Part shown: positions 1,800 through 19,593 of the stretch, in pieces | How the letters are laid out: every line of letters begins with the position of its first letter | How positions within the stretch are numbered: the stretch's first letter is position 1 | From: Aequorivita xiaoshiensis | Lineage (GTDB): Bacteria; Bacteroidota; Bacteroidia; Flavobacteriales; Flavobacteriaceae | NCBI RefSeq assembly: GCF_022008395.1 | Contig: NZ_JAIRBB010000003.1 | Span: 1-64,000 of the forward strand | Direction: 5' to 3' | DNA length: 64,000 bases | Position numbers and translations under genes: made by a program | The notes under the pieces: generated by a model | The model's input: only the letters and a program-made list of their open reading frames with translations | What the model was told of the DNA's origin: nothing | Database searches by the model: none

Positions 1800-3257
1800 C
1801 TATAGTATTGCGGGGAATGAAACTTCGAAAGTGGTCTTTTCTGAAGTCGAAGTTAGCGATATTGTTCCGCCGTATCTCTCAACTATATTTTTCACCATTC
1901 CCAAGCCAAGTCCCATCCCGCTAGATTTAGTGGTAAATTGCGGTTCAAAAATTCTTTCTTTGTTTTCGTTAGGGACTCCAATTCCATTGTCTGTAACGCG
2001 TATATTTACTAAAGTTTCTTTAGCTATTACTTCCACGTCAATTCGTGGTTCTTCAGGGTTTTTCTGCTCAATAGATTGAATGCTATTTTTAACCAAATTG
2101 GTAACCACCCTAATTAGTTGAGTTCTGTCGAATAGTACGCGGACTTCCTCTTCTTCTGAAAAGAAATATATATAATCTTCGGTAAAAATTTCTAAGGCTA
2201 ATTTTGTGATTTTTACAACGTTTAGAGTTTCATCTTGCTGCGCTGGCATTTTTGCATAGGTTGAAAAAGCCGAAGAAATAGAGCTTAAAGTGTCTATTTG
2301 CTGAAGCATAGTGTTGGTGTGTTCAGCAATTTTTTGTTCAATATCTGGGTCGTTGCGATCAAATTTTCGTTCAAAACTCTGAACGGTAAGTCGCATAGGG
2401 GTAAGCGGATTTTTAATTTCGTGTGCCACTTGCTTTGCCATTTCACGCCAAGCAGTTTCACGTTCGCTAGCTGCGAGCTGTGCAGCACTTTTTTCCAATT
2501 CGTCAATCATTCTATTGTAAGCATTGATAAGTGTAGAGATTTCGGAAGGCGTGTCGCTAAGGTGTATTTTTTTGTTTCGAGTATCAAAACGGGTTTCTGC
2601 TAACTTTTCACTTATTTCCTTTAAAGATCGAGTAATATATTTTGAAAGAAAATATGCCATTGCAATCGCCACTAGCAACATTAGTAAATAGGCGATTCCA
2701 AGCCTGTAGAGGTAATCTATGAGTTCTTTGTTGATTAAATCGTCGTCTTCTATATACGGCAGGTTAAGTATTGCTAAGGGTTTAAAATAACTATCTGTAA
2801 TATAAGTGTAAGACGATTGGTATTTTTGACCTCCTTCTTCAAAGGCTTTTATATAGTTTTTATTTGATGAATTTTGAAGCTTATCCAGAACTAAGTCTGG
2901 GATCTTTTGTGAGACTGTATCTCTGAAAAAAGAAGGTCTTGAAGATTTTAGAAGATTCCCATCGAGGTCGTAAAGGAAAATTTCGAGTCCGTGTATATCT
3001 TTTATTTCGTAAATCTTATCCTTAAAAATTAGCGGAATTTGGTCTGTTTCCTCGGGATAGGTAGTATTGTCTAATACGTATTTAATATTAGCACGAATAG
3101 CCGATTCTTTACGCAACAATCGATCACGATGATAGTCTTCGGCTTCTGTTTTGTACTGATTAACGGTAACAATAACAATGAGAACTGAAGCTCCAATGAC
3201 TAAAAAAATCATGGAGAGAAAGATTCTAGTACGTAGCGATTTTTTATAAAAGTACAC
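1800..3257 (-). CDS. Sensor histidine kinase, NtrY-like
   Basis: This is a 485-residue membrane kinase. A first transmembrane helix (about 12-32) is followed by a periplasmic sensor domain of roughly 150 residues. A second helix (about 187-208), a HAMP linker, and the dimerisation domain with phospho-acceptor His279 in VAHEIKNPLTPMRL come next. The ATPase domain carries DNGIGVP and the glycine box GMGLGLGMVKN. The layout resembles NtrY-type kinases of Bacteroidota. The start codon is GTG (3257-3255), chosen because it precedes the first membrane helix and no ATG is available. No response regulator is adjacent, so the signal and partner are unknown. It follows hemJ on the same strand after about 70 bases and may share its transcript. 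Confidence 0.88.
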   Translation of the reverse strand: MYFYKKSLRTRIFLSMIFLVIGASVLIVIVTVNQYKTEAEDYHRDRLLRKESAIRANIKYVLDNTTYPEETDQIPLIFKDKIYEIKDIHGLEIFLYDLDGNLLKSSRPSFFRDTVSQKIPDLVLDKLQNSSNKNYIKAFEEGGQKYQSSYTYITDSYFKPLAILNLPYIEDDDLINKELIDYLYRLGIAYLLMLLVAIAMAYFLSKYITRSLKEISEKLAETRFDTRNKKIHLSDTPSEISTLINAYNRMIDELEKSAAQLAASERETAWREMAKQVAHEIKNPLTPMRLTVQSFERKFDRNDPDIEQKIAEHTNTMLQQIDTLSSISSAFSTYAKMPAQQDETLNVVKITKLALEIFTEDYIYFFSEEEEVRVLFDRTQLIRVVTNLVKNSIQSIEQKNPEEPRIDVEVIAKETLVNIRVTDNGIGVPNENKERIFEPQFTTKSSGMGLGLGMVKNIVERYGGTISLTSTSEKTTFEVSFPAIL

Positions 3258-3328
3258 TTATATTATTTTGAAGAAGAAAGATAGCAATAATTAATCCGCT
3301 TTAAATCTGAATATAAATTTCATAAATC

Positions 3329-3877
3329 TCAATTGTTCTTTTCTTCTCTTATTCTTTTATACATTTTATATCCCATCATCAATAACATCGAAAAAGCGAT
3401 GATTCCTACAGTTCCGTAAATCCAGTTTACTGCACTTTTTAGAATTACTAGAAATACAACAGCAAAGAGAATTATGGTCGGCACTTCATTAAAGAGTCGC
3501 ATTGAATTTGAAGTGTATTTAATTACCCCTTTTTGAAGTTGTTTAAAAATTTGATGGCACTTAATGTGATAAATGATAAGCGCGACTACAAACACCAATT
3601 TCACTTGCATCCAAGCATCCGTAAGCCAAAACATGCGCATTCCCAAAAGCCAAAAGCCAAAAATTAAGGCTAGAATCATACTTGGCCAAGTAATGATATT
3701 CCATAGTCGAGAGGCCATTATGTTGAGTTGTTTTCCTAAAATTTCTTTTTCAGGAGAAGGTTTTTGTGAAGCTTCAATTTGATAAACAAATAAACGGACT
3801 ATATAAAAAAGACCAGCAAACCATGTAACTATAAATATAAGGTGTAGGGATTTTATGTATAAGTAATATTGTTCCAT
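3329..3877 (-). CDS. hemJ: Protoporphyrinogen IX oxidase HemJ (UPF0093 family)
   Basis: This 182-residue, four-helix membrane protein begins with the HemJ signature: a conserved His in KSLHLIFIVTWFAGLFY followed by VRLFVYQ. Further marks are a Met-Arg-Trp region and a Trp plus Lys in the second half (AWMQVKL). HemJ oxidises protoporphyrinogen IX to protoporphyrin IX, the penultimate step of heme synthesis, and is the usual enzyme of bacteria lacking HemG and HemY. The ATG at 3877 is preferred because the longer frame from 3898 needs TTG and adds residues before the conserved start. The ferrochelatase gene lies upstream on the same strand with one gene between. The product would hand its porphyrin directly to that enzyme. 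The family assignment is by motif reading. Confidence 0.85.
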   Translation of the reverse strand: MEQYYLYIKSLHLIFIVTWFAGLFYIVRLFVYQIEASQKPSPEKEILGKQLNIMASRLWNIITWPSMILALIFGFWLLGMRMFWLTDAWMQVKLVFVVALIIYHIKCHQIFKQLQKGVIKYTSNSMRLFNEVPTIILFAVVFLVILKSAVNWIYGTVGIIAFSMLLMMGYKMYKRIREEKNN

Positions 3878-3920
3878 TATAATAGTGTAGAAAAACAATT
3901 TAAAAATAACCTTTTAATAC

Positions 3921-5264
3921 TTATTCTTTTAAGGTTTTACGAATTTCTCTGTTTAAAAAATATCCGGTTACTATAGTTGATAAGATATCTGCCACTGGAA
4001 AAGAAATCCAAACCCCTAATTCGCCTAAGTAATACGGAAGAATTATTATTAATGGTATAAAGAAAAATCCTTGTCGTGTTAAGGTAAGCAGCAAAGCGGG
4101 AACTGCTTTTCCAATCGCTTGAAAGTAAGCCGAACCTATTAGTTGTATTGCAATAATAGGAGTAGCGGCAAAAACCCAGCGCATGTAATGCGGGGTTTCT
4201 GAAAGAATGTCGGGGTCATTCGTAAATACCGAAGTTATAGCTGCAGGAAACGACATTATTAATATGAAAATTAGAATCCCTAATCCTCCTGCGTATAATA
4301 TGGCTTTGTTAATGCTTTCTCTTACGCGTTTGTATTTATTTGCGCCATAATTATAACCTGCGATGGGTAGAAATCCTTGGGTTACTCCAAGAACTGGGAA
4401 GAGGGCAAACATCAACATCCTCCCAATAATTCCATAGGCTGCAACTGAAGCTTCGCCGCCAAAATTAAAGAGAATATTATTCATTAACAGGTAGGTTACA
4501 CTAACTACTGCCTGTCTTGCTAAGGTTACAAATCCCAAAGCCGAAATTTCCTTTAATATAGAAAGGTCAAGTCCAAAATGTGACCAGTTTATTTTTAACT
4601 CGGCTTTATCGCTTAAGAAGTAATAAAGTATGTAAAAGAAAGATAAAGAGTATGAAATAGTGGTCGCCCACGCTGCACCTGCCATCCCCATATCGAAGAT
4701 GTAAATCAAAATATAATCTAAAAGGAGGTTTCCAATGGAAGGAATAATCATCGCAATCATTGCGAATTTTGGTTTCCCTTCAGCACGGATTACATTGTTT
4801 CCCATCATGCTAAGGGCGAGAAGGGGCACTCCGTATAATACTATGCGATAATAAATCTTTGCAGGCTCAAATATGTCGCCTTTACCTCCGAAAGCTGGAA
4901 TTAAATCGTTAATAAAAATTAATCCAAAAATCACCATTGCTACAGTAAGCAATAGGGTTAAAGTGATTTGATTTCCAAAGGTTTTAAGAGCTCTTGCTCT
5001 GTTGCTAGAACCTAATGCCCTGGATATAATAGAAGATCCTCCAATACCAATTGCCATACCCAGAGCGGCAATAAAAAATGATACAGGAAGAACAACATTT
5101 ATTGCTGCAATGGCAATAGAACCTATCCAATTTCCAACAAAAATAGTATCTACCACTACATTAAGTGACATTACTAAAATTCCAATGGAAGCGGGTAAAG
5201 CTTGTTTAACTAATAAACTACCAATGGCATCGGTGCCAAGAGCATCAGATTGATTAGGTTTCAT
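3921..5264 (-). CDS. MATE family multidrug/cation exporter
   Basis: This is a 447-residue integral membrane protein with about twelve hydrophobic segments arranged as two MatE repeats. The start reads SLLVKQALPASIGILVMSLN, and the conserved DTIFVGNWIG and IGGSSIISRALG segments are typical of the family. These transporters expel drugs or toxic compounds in exchange for Na+ or H+. The ATG start is at 5264-5262. It sits between hemJ and hemH on the same strand with gaps of about 45 and 65 bases, so all three may be cotranscribed. Whether it moves a porphyrin-related compound is speculation from position alone. Confidence 0.92.
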   Translation of the reverse strand: MKPNQSDALGTDAIGSLLVKQALPASIGILVMSLNVVVDTIFVGNWIGSIAIAAINVVLPVSFFIAALGMAIGIGGSSIISRALGSSNRARALKTFGNQITLTLLLTVAMVIFGLIFINDLIPAFGGKGDIFEPAKIYYRIVLYGVPLLALSMMGNNVIRAEGKPKFAMIAMIIPSIGNLLLDYILIYIFDMGMAGAAWATTISYSLSFFYILYYFLSDKAELKINWSHFGLDLSILKEISALGFVTLARQAVVSVTYLLMNNILFNFGGEASVAAYGIIGRMLMFALFPVLGVTQGFLPIAGYNYGANKYKRVRESINKAILYAGGLGILIFILIMSFPAAITSVFTNDPDILSETPHYMRWVFAATPIIAIQLIGSAYFQAIGKAVPALLLTLTRQGFFFIPLIIILPYYLGELGVWISFPVADILSTIVTGYFLNREIRKTLKE

Positions 5265-5330
5265 ATAGTTTTTGAAAAATTATTACCCTTGAAAATTGTA
5301 TTCCCTTAAGAGGAAGTGCAAATGTTTCAA

Positions 5331-6368
5331 TTAGGCTATTGCCGTTTTTACATCTGCAATTCGCCATTGGTCAATCCAGCCTGTTAAAACATCAACCCAA
5401 TCGTCACGATCGTTTAGACAAGGTATAGTTGTGAATTCTTTTCCGCCAGCTTCGTGAAAAATTTCTTCACCTTCCATAGCGATTTCTTCTAGCGTTTCTA
5501 GACAATCACTTACAAAAGCAGGGGTTACAACAGCTATTTTTTTAGTCCCTTCCAATCCAAATCTTTCAATTGTTCTGTCTGTAGGTGGCTTTAACCATGG
5601 ATCAAAACCTAATCGTGATTGAAAAGCATTAGAATATGTTCCTGGTTTTAAGTTTAGTTTTTCGGCAACTAATTCGGTAGTTTTAAAACATTGATGTCGA
5701 TAGCAAAATTCATGGGCTGGCGAATCTGTTACACAACAGCTGCCGTCTATTTTACAATGGTTTTTAGTTATATCTCTTTTGTAAATATGTCGTTCAGGAA
5801 CACCGTGATAACTAAATAACAAATGCTCATAATCTACACCTTCCAAACTTTCGGCAATACTTCTTGAAAGCACTTCAATATATTCTGGCTTATTGTAAAA
5901 AGCCGGAAGTGATGTTATCTCAAGTTGCGGAAAAAACTCCTTCTTTAGTTCTTCCACTTTCACATCAATGGTTTCGGTTGTAGCCATTGCAAATTGTGGG
6001 TATAATGGAATCGTTAAAACTTCATCCACTCCTTGGTCAACCAATTCTTGTAATCCTTTTTTTAAGGTCATACTTCCATAACGCATGGCCAAAGCAACAG
6101 GAATTGTAGTTTTTTTCTGAATTTTTTCTTGAAGTCGTTCTGAAATTACAATTAAAGGAGACCCCTCTTCCCACCAAATCTTTTTGTAAGCTTCGGCTGA
6201 TTTCTTAGGTCGTGTGTTTAATATAATCCCTCTTACTATAAAAGAGCGAAGCCAAAAGGGAACGTCAATAACCCGTGGATCCATCAAAAATTCGTCAAGA
6301 TATTTTTTTAAGTCTTTCGGGTCGGTGCTATCAGGTGAACCGAGATTTACTAGGAGAACTCCTTTCAT
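5331..6368 (-). CDS. hemH: Ferrochelatase HemH
   Basis: This 345-residue enzyme inserts Fe2+ into protoporphyrin IX to complete protoheme. It has the N-terminal GVLLVNLGSPDS segment, the active-site His188 in SYHGVPERH, and the acidic ETLEEIAMEGEEIF region near 291-304 that lines the metal-entry side. Between them is a cysteine-rich stretch with Cys205, 211, 212, 222 and 227. In some ferrochelatases cysteines in this part bind a [2Fe-2S] cluster, but cluster binding here is only a possibility. The ATG start is at 6368. A TAATTTTG element lies 23 bases upstream. HemJ is two genes downstream, so the last two heme steps are encoded together, separate from the hemACDE block. Confidence 0.96.
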   Translation of the reverse strand: MKGVLLVNLGSPDSTDPKDLKKYLDEFLMDPRVIDVPFWLRSFIVRGIILNTRPKKSAEAYKKIWWEEGSPLIVISERLQEKIQKKTTIPVALAMRYGSMTLKKGLQELVDQGVDEVLTIPLYPQFAMATTETIDVKVEELKKEFFPQLEITSLPAFYNKPEYIEVLSRSIAESLEGVDYEHLLFSYHGVPERHIYKRDITKNHCKIDGSCCVTDSPAHEFCYRHQCFKTTELVAEKLNLKPGTYSNAFQSRLGFDPWLKPPTDRTIERFGLEGTKKIAVVTPAFVSDCLETLEEIAMEGEEIFHEAGGKEFTTIPCLNDRDDWVDVLTGWIDQWRIADVKTAIA

Positions 6369-14327: not shown

Positions 14328-14369
14328 TTTGTCATTATAGTTATTCTGCAATGTTTGAAACTCAGAACT

Positions 14370-15143
14370 ATGATTAAAAACATTCTAAGAGGTATAAGAG
14401 CATATGTTGGAACTTTCAAGCTTATAAGTAAACTTGGGCTTTGGAAGTATTTTGGGGTGCCGATGGCAATTAGTTTTTTAACGGCAATCCTAATTGGGGT
14501 TTCAGCTTGGGGTTTAAGTGATAATCTTGGTGCTTTTATTTCAAAAGTTTGGTTTTGGGAATGGGGAGCAGAGACTTTTAAAACGATTAGCGAATTTATA
14601 GGAGCCCTAATTATCATTGCACTTGGGCTTATTCTTTACAGGCATATTGTTATGGCACTTAGTGCACCTTTTATGAGTCCTGTTTCAGAAAAAATTGAAA
14701 AGCACTTATACGGGGTGGACAACATAGACCACTCGCATAGAAACACAACCAATGCGGGACAATTATGGCGAGGAATTCGACTAAATGTCCGAAACCTATT
14801 GATGGAGTTAATGATTACCATACCTATAATTCTAATCGGATTTATCCCTGTAATTGGAATAGCATCATCAATTTTGTTGTTTTTAGTGCAGAGCTATTAC
14901 GCAGGTTTTGGAAATATGGACTATACGCTAGAGCGACATTTTAAATATGCTGAAAGTATTCAATTTGTTAAGAGAAACCGAGGTTTGGCAATAGGAAACG
15001 GTATGGTATTTATGCTTGTACTACTAATTCCTGTGGTTGGAATTATCTTGGTTTTACCGCTTTCAGTTACCGCAGCAAGCACAGAAACTTTAAGAGTTTT
15101 GGAAAACCATAAAACAACTCAAAGGGTGTCTAATATACTGTAA
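14370..15143 (+). CDS. EI24/CysZ-like membrane protein
   Basis: This is a 257-residue protein with four to six hydrophobic segments and the pattern of the EI24 (CysZ/DUF540) family: a long N-terminal helix, LSAPFMSPVSEKIEK after the second membrane segment, and GFGNMDYTLERHFKY before the last pair. CysZ members import sulfate; other members have no assigned function. The ATG at 14370 is preferred to an in-frame TTG at 14355. It follows the DUF6973-like gene by 42 bases and is therefore probably part of the heme transcript. Transport of a heme-related or sulfur compound is only conjecture. Confidence 0.75.
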   Translation: MIKNILRGIRAYVGTFKLISKLGLWKYFGVPMAISFLTAILIGVSAWGLSDNLGAFISKVWFWEWGAETFKTISEFIGALIIIALGLILYRHIVMALSAPFMSPVSEKIEKHLYGVDNIDHSHRNTTNAGQLWRGIRLNVRNLLMELMITIPIILIGFIPVIGIASSILLFLVQSYYAGFGNMDYTLERHFKYAESIQFVKRNRGLAIGNGMVFMLVLLIPVVGIILVLPLSVTAASTETLRVLENHKTTQRVSNIL

Positions 15144-15157
15144 CTCGTCTGTGTTCT

Positions 15158-15203
15158 GGCAAGGTCTCTAAGACATCCTGCAAGGTCTCTAAGACCTTGT
15201 AGG
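15158..15203. repeat. REP-like palindromes upstream of the transposase-hemF gene
   Basis: Two related units lie in tandem. The first runs from GGCAAGGTCTCTAAGACAT (15158-15176). The second spans 15177-15203 and forms a 12-bp stem (CCTGCAAGGTCT against AGACCTTGTAGG, one G-T pair) with a CTA loop. The tetranucleotide-led palindromic form next to a RAYT transposase is typical of REP/BIME elements. Confidence 0.7.
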
Positions 15204-15221: not shown

Positions 15222-16799
15222 ATGAAACTAGAAACAATTGAACAATCACATTACTACCACATTTACAATCGAGGTATTAATGGGGAGAATATTTTTAAGA
15301 CTGAAGAAAACAAACGCTATTTTCTTCAATTATTTGGAAAATATGTTGCTCAGAATGTTGAAGTTTTTGGTTATTGTTTAATGGATAATCATTTCCATTT
15401 TCTTATTCAAGTTAATTCGAAACCGGAAGAATTTACTAAGAGTATTTCCGATTTTTTCAATGCTTATGCAAAGGCATTCAATAAATTTGCAGGACGTACG
15501 GGAAGCTTATTTGATAAGCATTTTAAAAGAATAAAGGTTAAGGATGAAAACTATATAAAGTCTCTTTTAATTTATATTCATAATAATCCTAAAGAAACAC
15601 AGGATATTACAAAGTATAAGTTTTCCTCTTTTCATCATTATTTAAATCTAAGTCAACCAGAATATTTTAAAATTTCAAAAGATTATACAGTTAACACTCT
15701 TTTTGAAACTATAGAAAATATGGCGTATTCACATAATAAAGAAATACTTGCAGGAGAAGACCTACAAGGAGCCCCCGCAGAAAAGGCGGGGGAACACCTT
15801 GCAGGAAATAGTCAGATTCAAAATAATTTTGACTTGCCCGGCGATGACAACAAAAGCGACTTTTTTGTGGACCCAAACTCCCAAACTAAAAAGAACATGA
15901 AAGAACAATTTGTAGCCTACATCAAAAATTTACAAAACGAAATAACTTCAGCCTTAGAGTCAATAGACGGTAAGGCGAAGTTTCAAGAAGATAAATGGAT
16001 TCGCAAAGAAGGTGGTGGCGGCCGAACGCGCGTGATTGAAAACGGAAATGTTTTTGAAAAAGGGGGCGTTAATATTAGTGAAGTACACGGAAAGTTACCT
16101 GAAAGTATGCAGGCGTATTTCGGAGTACAAGACGCAGATTTTTTTGCTTGTGGCTTGAGCTTGGTGCTACACCCAAAAAACCCAATGGTACCAACAGTAC
16201 ATGCAAACTGGCGCTATTTTGAAATGTACGACGCTACAGGAAATATTGTAGATAGTTGGTTTGGTGGGGGACAAGATCTAACACCTTACTACTTATTTGA
16301 AGAAGACGCAGTACATTTTCATAAGGTGTGCAAAACAGCTTGCGACAAACATAATGGTGAGTTTTATTCGAGGTACAAAAAGCGTTGCGACGAATATTTT
16401 TGGAATTCTCATCGCGATGAAGCTCGTGGAGTTGGAGGCTTGTTTTTTGATTATTTAAAGAAGACCGATGAGATGAACATGAAAGACTGGTACAATTTTG
16501 TAACCGAAGTTGGTAATAGTTTCTTAGATTGTTATCTGCCGATTGTTGAAAGGAGAAAAGACCTTTCATATTCTGAAGAAAATAGAACTTGGCAAGAAAT
16601 TCGTCGTGGGCGTTATGTTGAGTTCAACTTAGTTCACGATAAAGGAACTTTGTTTGGATTAAAAACCAACGGTCGTATAGAGAGTATTTTAATGAGTTTA
16701 CCACCACATGTTCAATGGAAATACGATCATCATCCAGAGGTGGGGAGTGAAGAAGAAAAGCTTGTTGAGGTATTAAGAAGCCCTAAAGAGTGGGTTTAA
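15222..16799 (+). CDS. hemF: REP-associated tyrosine transposase fused in frame to coproporphyrinogen III oxidase HemF
   Basis: One uninterrupted 525-codon frame holds two proteins. Residues 1-165 are a RAYT (Y1 transposase) domain: HYYHIYNRG, HUH motif HFH at 57-59, and Tyr118 in LIYIHNNP. Residues 176-194 are encoded by a REP-like hairpin. From Met226 a complete oxygen-dependent HemF follows, which decarboxylates coproporphyrinogen III to protoporphyrinogen IX. It has HANWRYFEM (327-335), GGGQDLTPYY (348-357), HRDEARGVGG (397-406) and a normal C-terminus. Free HemF is about 300 residues, exactly the length from Met226. The likely history is insertion of the mobile gene upstream of hemF with loss of its stop. 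HemF may be made alone from Met226 or as the fusion. HemF function is near certain; transposase activity is not. Confidence 0.93.
   Translation: MKLETIEQSHYYHIYNRGINGENIFKTEENKRYFLQLFGKYVAQNVEVFGYCLMDNHFHFLIQVNSKPEEFTKSISDFFNAYAKAFNKFAGRTGSLFDKHFKRIKVKDENYIKSLLIYIHNNPKETQDITKYKFSSFHHYLNLSQPEYFKISKDYTVNTLFETIENMAYSHNKEILAGEDLQGAPAEKAGEHLAGNSQIQNNFDLPGDDNKSDFFVDPNSQTKKNMKEQFVAYIKNLQNEITSALESIDGKAKFQEDKWIRKEGGGGRTRVIENGNVFEKGGVNISEVHGKLPESMQAYFGVQDADFFACGLSLVLHPKNPMVPTVHANWRYFEMYDATGNIVDSWFGGGQDLTPYYLFEEDAVHFHKVCKTACDKHNGEFYSRYKKRCDEYFWNSHRDEARGVGGLFFDYLKKTDEMNMKDWYNFVTEVGNSFLDCYLPIVERRKDLSYSEENRTWQEIRRGRYVEFNLVHDKGTLFGLKTNGRIESILMSLPPHVQWKYDHHPEVGSEEEKLVEVLRSPKEWV
15747..15805. repeat. REP-like hairpin inside the reading frame, encoding the fusion linker
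   Basis: CTTGCAGG (15747-15754) pairs with CCTACAAG (15761-15768). CCTACAAGG (15761-15769) also pairs across CCCCCGC/GCGGGGG (15772-15778/15786-15792) with CCTTGCAGG (15797-15805). The words match those of the upstream palindromes. Translated, this gives the LAGEDLQGAPAEKAGEHLAG linker. Confidence 0.65.
15799..15831 (+). promoter_or_regulatory. Candidate internal promoter for hemF
   Basis: TTG at 15799-15801, then 22 bases, then TAATTTTG at 15824-15831, fits the Bacteroidota -33/-7 pattern. It would start a transcript some 60 bases before the hemF ATG at 15897. The -33 lies in the REP-like hairpin, so the mobile element may have supplied part of it. Pattern match only. Confidence 0.35.
15897..16799 (+). 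other. hemF: Internal start: stand-alone HemF translation unit
   Basis: ATG 15897 is in frame with the fusion and begins MKEQFVAYIKNLQ, the expected N-terminus of HemF, giving a 300-residue protein of normal length. It is preceded by an A-rich stretch (AAACTAAAAAGAAC), which suits Bacteroidota initiation where Shine-Dalgarno pairing is weak. This is my preferred start for functional HemF. Confidence 0.7.
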
Positions 16800-16880: not shown

Positions 16881-16930
16881 CCTGCAAGGGAGTCCTAGAC
16901 CATAAATGAGTTAACTTCGCCTTTGCAGGG
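16881..16930. repeat. Degenerate REP-like inverted repeat downstream of hemF
   Basis: CCTGCAAGG (16881-16889) and CCTTTGCAGG (16920-16929, one extra T) form an inverted pair using the same words as the two upstream REP copies. It lies between hemF and the convergent helicase gene and ends nine bases before the helicase stop codon at 16939. Confidence 0.45.
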
Positions 16931-16938
16931 AATTACCA

Positions 16939-19593
16939 TCACTTCCATATCAAAGACTTTTTTGATTTTAGGTTGTTCTCATGCTGAAAATAATGAAAAC
17001 GGGCTTTTAACAATAGTTTTCTGCCTTCAGGATTTCTAGTAAAAGTGAGTTCTGCCTTTCCATTGTGTTTTTTCCAATGTCTGAAGAATAAATCTGCATC
17101 CTTTTTCCTTTCGGCAAATAGCTTTGGAACACTGTAATAATTGGCAAGCCCCAATTTATTTCTAAACCAACCAGATTGACTAATAATATAGCGCGGATTT
17201 TCAACAGGAGAAATAATTTCTTCAAGGTAATCTGTAAAAAGCCAACCTTCTTTAACTGTGGCACCTTTTAAGAAACAGCTTATTTCGGTTTGATTAATAT
17301 TTTCAATTACAACTTCAATATCGGTTGCGGCAGATTTTATAATTTGTTTTTCAATCATAGCTCCTTTTAAGGCATTTGCCATTTTTTTCAACTGTTTATC
17401 TCTTCTGCCATATTTAAGATATAATTTGAGTGCTTTAAAAGTTTTTGGGACAAATATTAAAACAATTCCGCTTCCTACGGCATAGAAGAAATAAAGAAAC
17501 CCACGTGAAACTAAGGTGAAAAAGTTTTTTAGAAAAAGTTCAGGAATAGTAATTACCATTAATACTAAAAGTTCGACAAAGGCGTATTTCACTAAATCTC
17601 TATAATAATACTTTTTTGCTTTTGTAGAAGTTGTTTTGGATTCAAAATCTAGCTTCAACTCCCGAATCAATATGTTTCCCTTTTCTAGCGCTTTATCCCA
17701 TCTTTTCTTTACGTTGGGGCGATTCAATGCCAAAGCGCACATTTTTGCATTTAAAATTTCTATTTCTGAGAGAGACCTGGTTATTTTAAAACGGGAAATA
17801 CCGTTTTCTATATATGGCTGTCCTTCAAGAGAAAGCCCGCAGAAGGCATTAAACCTTCGGGTTAACGTTTCTAAATCGGCACCGCCAATATTACTTGTGG
17901 GATCCACGCAAGCAAGATGCCAGATGTTTGCAACTTTTTCGGGTTTTAAAGGGTTTATCCGAAGTGCCCGACCACGCATTTGGTTGGAGGTTACAAAGGA
18001 GCCAACATATGAGGCTAGAACGAGTGTATTAATTGCTGGTGCATCCCAACCCTCACCCAATAACGATTTCGTGCCAACAACGACTTGAATAAATCCATCT
18101 TCAAATAGTTGCGTTATAGCGCCTATTATTTGCTTTTTTCCGTATAAAGTTGGCTTGATAATAATGTACTCTGTGTCCCATAAAATGGATTCGGTGAAAG
18201 CATTTTTAGATATTTTAGAGGTTAGTTCATTCAACACTGAATTGTGAATTAAAATCAACGAGCCAGTAAGTACGGCCAATTTACTTTTATGAAGCTTTAT
18301 AGAGTCGTCATTCTTTATGTTGTTTCGAAGATGTTGAAAGATAGGAACTACTCCCATTTTGTTGATGTCTGAAAGTGTCTCACCATATTTAAAATCGAGA
18401 TACTCTTTTCTAATATAGTCTGAAAGAACTACCATTCTCAGTGAACTCCCTAAGTTTTCACTCTCTATCCTCGTGATTTCAACAATACTCCTAAGCTTTG
18501 ATGGACTTTGGGAGAGGGATCGATACAGATTGCCTTCGCCAACAAGATTAACCCGTTGTCTATTGAAAGCACCTATTTTTCGTAGCTTCTTTTCAAGGGT
18601 ATTTAGCAGAGTTTCATTATCAAGATAAACCTCTCTATTATCAACTAAAAGGGGCTGCAATAAAGCTTCAACCCACTCATAAGAAAATGAAGGGAAGGTG
18701 ATGTTTTTTGGGTTCGCCCCTAATACTTCAATTTTTTCTGAAGGAATTTCAAAACCAATCGAATTTAAGTATATAAGCATCGCCGAATAGAAATCTGGAT
18801 GTTCGTAAATGGCTTCTAGTGAATTTTCAGTATTCTCATAAAATGGATGCTTAAGAATAAAGCTTTTAAAATCTTCATCTGCTTTTAGCCATAAAACAAA
18901 GGCTAGTATCTGCTCGCGATATTTGATTATATATCGAATTTGTTCTTCATCAGGTTGCGAAAAATAAATATAATCTTGATGTGGGCATATGTTCCCTTCC
19001 TTTACCAATTCCGGCAAGCCGATTTCCATATCTATAGGGCCACACAATTTAAAATAGTTGGCTATTTCATTTGCATCACTATCATATGGTGGGGTTGCGG
19101 TCAGAGAAATTACAGTGCAATCTGGCAGTTGTTTTAAACTAACTAGTGGTTTCCACCATTCCTTTTTTAGATGGTGCGCCTCGTCTAAAAGAAGATTTTC
19201 GATTCCACATTTCTGAAAAAAATGAAGCAATTTAGTATCAGAACTTTCCATTTCATTCTTATAAAAAGAATGTAAAGATTGATACGTAGAAAAGGTAAGT
19301 GTTTCTGGTGTTTTTAAGTTAAAAGAAACTTGTATTGAATGTTCACCATTTACAAAACATTCTAACATTCGCTCGTACCATTGATTACGAATGGTTAAAG
19401 TAGGAGATAAAATGAGTGTCTTTTTGTTTATTCTGCGTACCATTTCTAACCCCAAAACAGTTTTTCCAGCACCAGGAGGTGCTACTATATGCAAATGTTT
19501 ATCTTCTATATGCTTTTCAAAATCTTCCAAAAAACGCGCTTGATAGCTTCGCCAGGTAAATTTGAAAAGTAGGGTTGTGGATAGCGTGTTCAA
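16939..19593 (-). CDS. Large SF2 DEAD/DEAH-box helicase-family protein with C-terminal membrane segments
   Basis: This 884-residue protein has a complete superfamily-2 motor. Walker A is APPGAGKT (38-45), followed by DEAH (137-140) and LTATPP (164-169). The second RecA lobe has GEGWDAPAINTLVLAS and the arginine-finger motif QMRGRALRINP near 540-550. Residues from about 620 are unlike ordinary helicases: two hydrophobic stretches lie near 665-715, then a basic region. The motor resembles ResIII/SSL2-type translocases. The start is TTG (19593), since a stop lies just upstream and the conserved WRSYQARF begins at residue 14. It stands alone, opposite to the heme genes and between hemF and hemB. 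I do not know its function; a DNA-uptake, repair or anti-phage role is possible. Confidence 0.8.
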   Translation of the reverse strand: MNTLSTTLLFKFTWRSYQARFLEDFEKHIEDKHLHIVAPPGAGKTVLGLEMVRRINKKTLILSPTLTIRNQWYERMLECFVNGEHSIQVSFNLKTPETLTFSTYQSLHSFYKNEMESSDTKLLHFFQKCGIENLLLDEAHHLKKEWWKPLVSLKQLPDCTVISLTATPPYDSDANEIANYFKLCGPIDMEIGLPELVKEGNICPHQDYIYFSQPDEEQIRYIIKYREQILAFVLWLKADEDFKSFILKHPFYENTENSLEAIYEHPDFYSAMLIYLNSIGFEIPSEKIEVLGANPKNITFPSFSYEWVEALLQPLLVDNREVYLDNETLLNTLEKKLRKIGAFNRQRVNLVGEGNLYRSLSQSPSKLRSIVEITRIESENLGSSLRMVVLSDYIRKEYLDFKYGETLSDINKMGVVPIFQHLRNNIKNDDSIKLHKSKLAVLTGSLILIHNSVLNELTSKISKNAFTESILWDTEYIIIKPTLYGKKQIIGAITQLFEDGFIQVVVGTKSLLGEGWDAPAINTLVLASYVGSFVTSNQMRGRALRINPLKPEKVANIWHLACVDPTSNIGGADLETLTRRFNAFCGLSLEGQPYIENGISRFKITRSLSEIEILNAKMCALALNRPNVKKRWDKALEKGNILIRELKLDFESKTTSTKAKKYYYRDLVKYAFVELLVLMVITIPELFLKNFFTLVSRGFLYFFYAVGSGIVLIFVPKTFKALKLYLKYGRRDKQLKKMANALKGAMIEKQIIKSAATDIEVVIENINQTEISCFLKGATVKEGWLFTDYLEEIISPVENPRYIISQSGWFRNKLGLANYYSVPKLFAERKKDADLFFRHWKKHNGKAELTFTRNPEGRKLLLKARFHYFQHENNLKSKKSLIWK

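Follow-up and report, generated by a model that had tools for sequence, protein, structure and literature searches.

RAYTs (REP-associated tyrosine transposases) are single, mostly non-IS genes, and the reason for their retention is an open question. In the account of TnpA_REP/RAYT proteins by Quentin et al. (2018, PMC6006769), subclass 2.4 includes REP insertions within the gene that leave the frame undisrupted, and family members of unusual length were set aside as being either fusions or errors of annotation; no partner is named in that connection, and the words "fused" and "oxidase" do not occur in the main text. Nor was an earlier RAYT-HemF fusion found in the titles and abstract openings of the open-licence PMC papers listed by literature searches. 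Here we describe such a fusion from the flavobacterium Aequorivita xiaoshiensis, located in a 64,000-nucleotide stretch of DNA that was analysed as a whole and is referred to below as the window (contig NZ_JAIRBB010000003.1, positions 1 to 64,000, assembly GCF_022008395.1). With subclasses 2.4 and 2.6, as characterized in PMC6006769, its RAYT shares the HUH and single-tyrosine core, a YIHxNP-type motif, an SS pair after the core, flanking REPs and a Bacteroidetes host, and it differs in the placing of the REP, which follows the core and forms a bridge to a second gene. By eye its motifs are mixed, with NHFH as in subclass 2.4 and YIHxNP, the SS tail and Bacteroidetes as in subclass 2.6. The novelty lies in the partner of the RAYT, a housekeeping gene to which it is fused. 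Our reading, to which we assign a probability of roughly 70%, is that a domesticated RAYT settled at the joint in front of hemF, became fused to it through its own 3' REP, and is now translationally locked onto a housekeeping gene.

The gene occupies window positions 15222-16799 (+) as a single stop-free frame of 525 aa, and the domains and motifs of the original prediction, namely a complete RAYT domain (HFH at residues 57-59, Tyr118) joined in frame to a complete HemF from Met226, were all recovered (Table 1). Pfam Y1_Tnp matches residues 9-122 with 24.0 bits, just above the cut-off of 23, and the NCBIfam model REP_Tyr_transpos (NF047646) scores the RAYT half at 39.9, under its cut-off of 80. 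The HemF half is matched far more strongly, by Pfam PF01218 over residues 230-524 (450.6 bits) and by the NCBIfam HemF model NF003727 (422.6 against a cut-off of 297), of which profile positions 2-294 of 294 are covered, that is, the full length. Many HemF residues are invariant when 32 fusions are aligned with 6 plain HemFs. In an AlphaFold2 model built from 38 aligned sequences (mean pLDDT 74.8, pTM 0.51), both domains are folded and the linker between them has low confidence; low-confidence stretches also occur in its HemF half (393-403, 466-491, 497-502 and 521-525), and for this reason we make no statement on domain contacts. Searched with Foldseek, the model matched HemF structures, among which Klebsiella HemF (8T7W) is 51% identical to the HemF half in the structural alignment, and its best transposase match was 4ER8 (E 1.1e-5), a RAYT bound to a REP hairpin. 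As judged from sequence, the RAYT half looks intact in its HUH motif and Tyr118, and the HemF half is complete.

Table 1. Features of the fusion gene and its immediate surroundings, in window coordinates
Feature	Position	Strand	Details
EI24/CysZ-like gene, next upstream	14355..15143	+	Pfam PF07264, 123 bits
5' REP palindrome, upstream of RAYT	15177..15203	.	fold -9.5 kcal/mol, z -6.8; exact match to the REP pattern, as expected, the pattern having been drawn from this element itself
RAYT (Y1 HUH) domain	15222..15746	+	residues 1-175; profile, and structure match to 4ER8
HUH motif HFH	15390..15398	+	residues 57-59; H57 in 40/41 fusions, H59 in 41/41
Catalytic tyrosine	15573..15575	+	residue 118; Y in 41/41 fusions
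Linker, predicted disordered	15747..15896	+	residues 176-225 (50 aa); pLDDT <50 at 177-180 and 183-223
3' REP-like element, in-frame part of linker	15761..15805	.	arms 15761-15769 and 15797-15805
HemF, oxygen-dependent coproporphyrinogen III oxidase	15897..16799	+	residues 226-525; own ATG (15897, Met226) present

On its 5' side the fusion is preceded by hemA, hemC, a hemD-like gene (which scores below the curated cut-offs) and hemE, followed by a DUF6973 gene and the EI24/CysZ-like gene; on its 3' side a helicase-like frame lies on the other strand, and then hemB. This frame (16939-19593, -) is a large one of the ResIII/DEAD type, situated between hemF and hemB, and no curated NCBIfam model matches it above its cut-off. 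Just past the hemF stop, at 16881-16935, REP-like half sites (CCTGCAAGG ... CCTTTGCAGG) can be seen by eye. HemF is required mainly for aerobic heme synthesis where the oxygen-independent HemN is present. Since HemN is encoded on another contig of the same genome (426 bits, cut-off 325), HemF may not be strictly essential there, which qualifies its earlier designation as an essential step.

A gene of this kind, found in a draft genome of 83 contigs, invites the suspicion of a sequencing, assembly or frameshift artefact, an explanation that relatives with the same fused frame reduce to a negligible probability. The congener G023 carries it at 97% identity, and 39 further distinct loci beyond these two have a fused frame, several of them in single-contig assemblies (such as G015, G174, G206 and G217), so that the frame can be taken as free of assembly or frameshift error. 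Furthermore, linkers of 21 different lengths occur among the 41 distinct fusions, each of them necessarily in frame given how fusions are defined, and the alternative linker frames are open in just 6 of 82 cases; together with the match in G023, this indicates that the in-frame join goes beyond chance.

The fusion is not confined to this genome, and it proved to be recurrent in the Flavobacteriaceae, to which all 41 distinct in-frame fusions belong (pooled loci, with frames of identical RAYT domains counted once, 67 being thereby reduced to 41; a different duplicate rule gave 39 fused loci). Among 397 genomes drawn evenly from the family, with up to 8 candidates scored per genome, at least 17 have a RAYT in one frame with HemF. 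Within the genus, 5 of 28 genomes have the fusion (G000, G023, G015, G026 and G009) and 21 a plain HemF; of the other two, one has its hemF truncated at the edge of a contig and the other, an incomplete assembly, yielded no match. Named genomes were scanned as well, in a survey biased by its ranking, since it retained those 80 of 574 confirmed loci that most resemble the fusion; it places fusions in Aequorivita, Winogradskyella, Luteirhabdus, Algibacter and Flavivirga, as well as in Hanstruepera, Polaribacter, Mariniflexile, Hyunsoonleella and several MAGs. In samples of the order (196 genomes) and the phylum (296 genomes), both of which include family members, the matches listed, a minority of which were examined with their genomic context, contain no hemF-type fusion beyond G000, G174 and G206, and none outside Flavobacteriaceae.

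The RAYTs concerned form one lineage. In a tree of 66 RAYTs, the 55 linked to hemF, whether fused or near, split from 11 others with support of 100/99.6, and a quick tree recovers the same division with support of 97. All RAYTs scoring at least 216 bits against the fused-RAYT profile lie upstream of hemF on the same strand, at the loci for which context was fetched, and are fused to it, 57-261 nt away or 1.1-2.7 kb away; in the 397 family genomes, 17 of 26 such RAYTs are fused to HemF. Two simpler accounts were rejected on these grounds: a general fusing habit of RAYTs, given that none of 40 other RAYTs above 100 bits in the same genomes has a frame of more than 240 aa (among the matches listed), and a recent one-off insertion, the hemF-linked RAYTs being a single lineage across many genera.

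The site that this lineage occupies is a tight one. We measured the junction in 79 of 81 RAYT-free loci (the other two have no upstream frame of 120 codons in range): hemF overlaps the upstream frame or starts within 10 nt of it in 57, the overlap being 1, 4 or 11 nt in 42, and lies 13-359 nt away in the remaining 22. Without a RAYT, then, hemF for the most part touches its upstream neighbour or overlaps with it, and this joint is where the element is found. In a RAYT-free congener (L006), the stop of the upstream EI24/CysZ-like gene overlaps the hemF ATG (TAATG), and where an occupied locus (L042) can be set against empty ones with near-identical HemFs (G093/L147), the element is placed exactly between the upstream stop and the hemF ATG. 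An unfused RAYT in G376 (L186) ends on the hemF start itself, in another frame, through a stop/start overlap (ATGA). Such coupled RAYT/hemF pairs are one or two bases away from fusion. At another locus (L187, in G211), an adjacent unfused RAYT ends shortly before the hemF ATG, again in another frame and likewise a small shift short of a fusion.

The history of the slot seems more complex than that of a single inherited insertion. Fusion state changes 7 times on the RAYT tree, at least 5 of them on supported branches. On a HemF tree (quick method, rows below 270 aa or identical left out), sequences group mostly by genus with the fused label scattered, giving 22 changes, 5 of which are forced by supported branches. 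RAYT and HemF distances are correlated (Mantel rho 0.45, none of 2000 permutations as high, 54 loci). In Winogradskyella, HemFs about 95-97% identical stand next to RAYTs merely about 51-55% identical, which points to exchange of the RAYT part at times; at the DNA level, one such comparison (L035/L045) gives 87-89% upstream, 66% in the RAYT and 90% in HemF, with conserved flanks, and no clear gradient of HemF identity near its start was seen in those pairs. A purely vertical history lacks clean support in view of near-identical HemFs with deeply different RAYTs. The slot itself looks old, with its RAYT occupant lost, regained or exchanged, and the patchy state (22 changes on the HemF tree, plain hemF in 21 of 28 congeners) suggests an element often lost or never gained, which limits the strength of any lock-in.

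In the window, the RAYT is flanked by REPs, one on the 5' side and a REP-like element within the linker on the 3' side, whose arms flank a G+C-rich hairpin; the stretch 15745-15806 folds at -13.7 kcal/mol (z -3.8 against shuffles). Across the 41 fusions, 30 linkers (counted with the last 15 RAYT codons) contain a stem of at least 10 pairs, against 13 of 820 dinucleotide-preserving shuffles; the other 11 have no such simple stem, and the window's linker, in which a simple palindrome scan confined to short loops finds just 7 pairs, is among them. In several genomes, from a listing of 33 loci, the palindrome 5' of the RAYT is of the same kind as that in the linker, as in L142, where AGACCTGTCAGGTTT..AAACCTGACAGGTCT occurs on both sides. 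Translated, the linker palindromes yield repeating peptides such as DLQGFENLAG, DLSGFENLTG and RPARFEKPAR, and 39 of 41 linkers fit a loose list of peptide motifs that was drawn up after the linkers had been seen. The REP pattern, one REP form being counted with up to 3 mismatches, occurs at 6 distinct places in the window's genome and at none in a reversed control; the high copy number expected of RAYT-associated REPs was not seen for this form. In most fusions the linker is the in-frame translation of the RAYT's 3' REP palindrome. A Polaribacter MAG (L056) has RAYT and HemF in the same frame with one stop between them, located within the REP (DLQGF*NLAG), and its hemF ATG is present.

Whether the fusion is translated whole or HemF arises only from the internal start was an apt question to raise, and the answer differs among fusions: 22 of 41 need an upstream start, while the window's clade keeps the ATG. 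The native hemF start codon is ATG in 16 of the 41, GTG in 2, TTG in 1 and a non-start codon in 22. Where the hemF-linked RAYT is unfused, hemF has its ATG in every case, 9 with an adjacent RAYT and 4 with one further off (0 of 13 start-less). RAYT-free hemF has a start codon in 79 of 81, and in the two exceptions a Met lies upstream, at a distance of 2 codons in one and of about 22 in the other. Fisher's exact test for start-less genes (22/41 against 2/94) gives 4e-12, a value that ignores relatedness. On the RAYT tree the start state changes 16 times, implying many losses; when fusion and start loss are compared in phylogenetic pairs, the test has little power, with 5 pairs on supported branches and p of 0.25-1 (on average 1.8 pairs in the expected direction, 0.0 against and 3.2 with no difference). 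Among the 22 start-less fusions, which include that of Winogradskyella litoriviva, ATG is absent between codons -60 and +25 in 16, and ATG, GTG and TTG are all absent between -20 and +25 in 17. Over the wider range of -60 to +25, none of the three occurs in just two, L043 (Hanstruepera flava) and L146; in the remainder, initiation may take place inside the RAYT tail. In most of these species HemF must therefore begin clearly upstream of the native start, most simply at the RAYT start and hence as the long fusion.

For the window's own clade, either the whole fusion or a short HemF from Met226 is possible, since the internal ATG is kept (in 5 of 5 species). One could go further and hold that HemF comes mainly from this internal start, the long protein being minor or absent and the fusion a mere by-product, for which the retained starts speak both here and in the 16 ATG-, 2 GTG- and 1 TTG-bearing fusions overall. 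We regard this as a serious but rather doubtful alternative: it is at odds with the 22 start-less fusions, 16 of them devoid of a nearby ATG, and with the preservation of the frame through Aequorivita-group linkers as different as 39, 40, 50, 50 and 104 aa. A Bacteroidota promoter consensus likewise has no + strand match in the fusion gene; its one match there is on the other strand, and the total for the window, 7 where 5.9 would be expected, is at chance level, so that an internal promoter was discarded as a candidate. A different possibility is that the fusion is made and then cleaved in the linker into RAYT and HemF. The linker is predicted to be disordered and is variable, as such a scheme would have it, but no common cleavage motif was evident by eye among the linkers viewed; we think this unlikely.

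The preferred reading, that of a translational lock, can be formulated as follows. A RAYT with its flanking REPs occupies the tight joint between hemF and the preceding gene, as one lineage across the Flavobacteriaceae, and its 3' REP, read in frame, joins it to HemF. Presumably hemF was once translated by coupling to the preceding gene and now supplies the C-terminal half of a protein that starts with the RAYT, two working domains being made at full length and held together by a flexible linker. Such a join would keep HemF supplied and also protect the RAYT frame, in which any nonsense or frameshift mutation would be expected to abolish HemF. It would amount to an "entanglement" arisen in nature, between a domesticated transposase and a housekeeping gene. 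A useful gene would thereby come to depend on the reading frame of a transposase relative. Physical linkage of a RAYT to a heme enzyme, seen in dozens of species and often accompanied by loss of the enzyme's start codon, offers a testable route of RAYT retention; REPs emerge as readable protein linkers, and the hemF product of these genomes is a predicted two-domain protein.

The RAYT half also appears to be maintained at the sequence level. In 25 pairs with the closest HemFs (Nei-Gojobori, own script), RAYT dN/dS is 0.11-0.25 in 17, some of which have large dS, 0.33 in the very close pair of the window and G023, where changes are few, and not computable through saturation in 7; HemF gives 0.03-0.11 in the same comparison. 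These values indicate purifying selection on the RAYT sequence. The lone exception to the HUH motif among the 41 fusions is in Mariniflexile maritimum, where its first His is replaced by Gln. That fused RAYTs are intact follows in part from the way fusions are defined. This applies also to the genus, where stops occur in 0 of 5 hemF-linked RAYTs and 6 of 17 others, a difference that would fit protection of the RAYT by the slot but is drawn from few cases. The second RAYT of the window's genome (C82:74336-74848; L002, L197) is interrupted by an in-frame TAG, and a G023 RAYT of similar match (C8:127993-128511) is open. Selection on the RAYT might alternatively reflect its recruitment as a regulatory or targeting domain of HemF, which would bind the REP hairpins of the gene itself, as DNA or as mRNA, and so tune heme synthesis; the REPs directly upstream of and within the gene and the match to 4ER8, a RAYT solved with a REP hairpin, fit this idea as well. 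Linker length is not conserved, however, different RAYT lineages precede near-identical HemFs, and most congeners have no RAYT at hemF at all, and we consider such a role improbable, more so than cleavage.

RAYT joins of this type may not be limited to hemF, as is suggested by a RAYT-PIF1-like helicase fusion in one genus (g243). In L209, positions 2606-5692 (+) (G273:C16) hold a 1029-aa frame in which the peptide THTVTQSHGVS lies between the RAYT's HUH and Tyr motifs and a second copy links to the helicase; two further genomes of that genus carry long RAYT-plus-helicase matches, G865 at 83% identity, where the contig ends within the stretch, and G866 at 79%. This fusion is one of three low-scoring long-frame matches, the others being a Y1-like domain inside a larger enzyme and a frame reading back upstream of a RAYT, the latter with no evident partner. 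A 1243-aa frame on the - strand of L210 (G276:C1) has a weak internal Y1/IS200-like match of 18-23 bits (GDHIHLL ... YIQTNRQKH), and its protein resembles by eye a type IIG restriction-modification enzyme. Tentatively, and with somewhat less than even confidence, we propose the more general view that REPs act as in-frame "adaptors" for the fusion of RAYTs to adjacent housekeeping genes, that once the start codon has decayed the transposase is hard to lose by nonsense or frameshift mutation, and that the hemF joint is a favoured slot re-occupied by RAYT cassette exchange, with the RAYT-helicase gene as a second case of natural gene entanglement.

Set beside known systems, the RAYT-helicase fusion shares with the RAYT-HemF gene an in-frame join to a downstream gene by a repeated peptide, and it differs in its partner, in its much less similar RAYT, which scores about 63 bits with the profile of fused RAYTs, and in its confinement to three genomes of one genus. 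With the HemF enzymes of yeast (1TXN/1TKL) and Klebsiella (8T7W) the window's protein has the full-length domain in common, and it is set apart by an N-terminal extension of 225 aa that bears the RAYT. Finally, engineered gene overlaps with an essential gene, as described in PMC10359631 and PMC8528312, follow the same principle, in which loss-of-function mutations are purged through the partner; those constructs are synthetic, whereas here the fusion is a natural, in-frame one and its protective effect is presumed.
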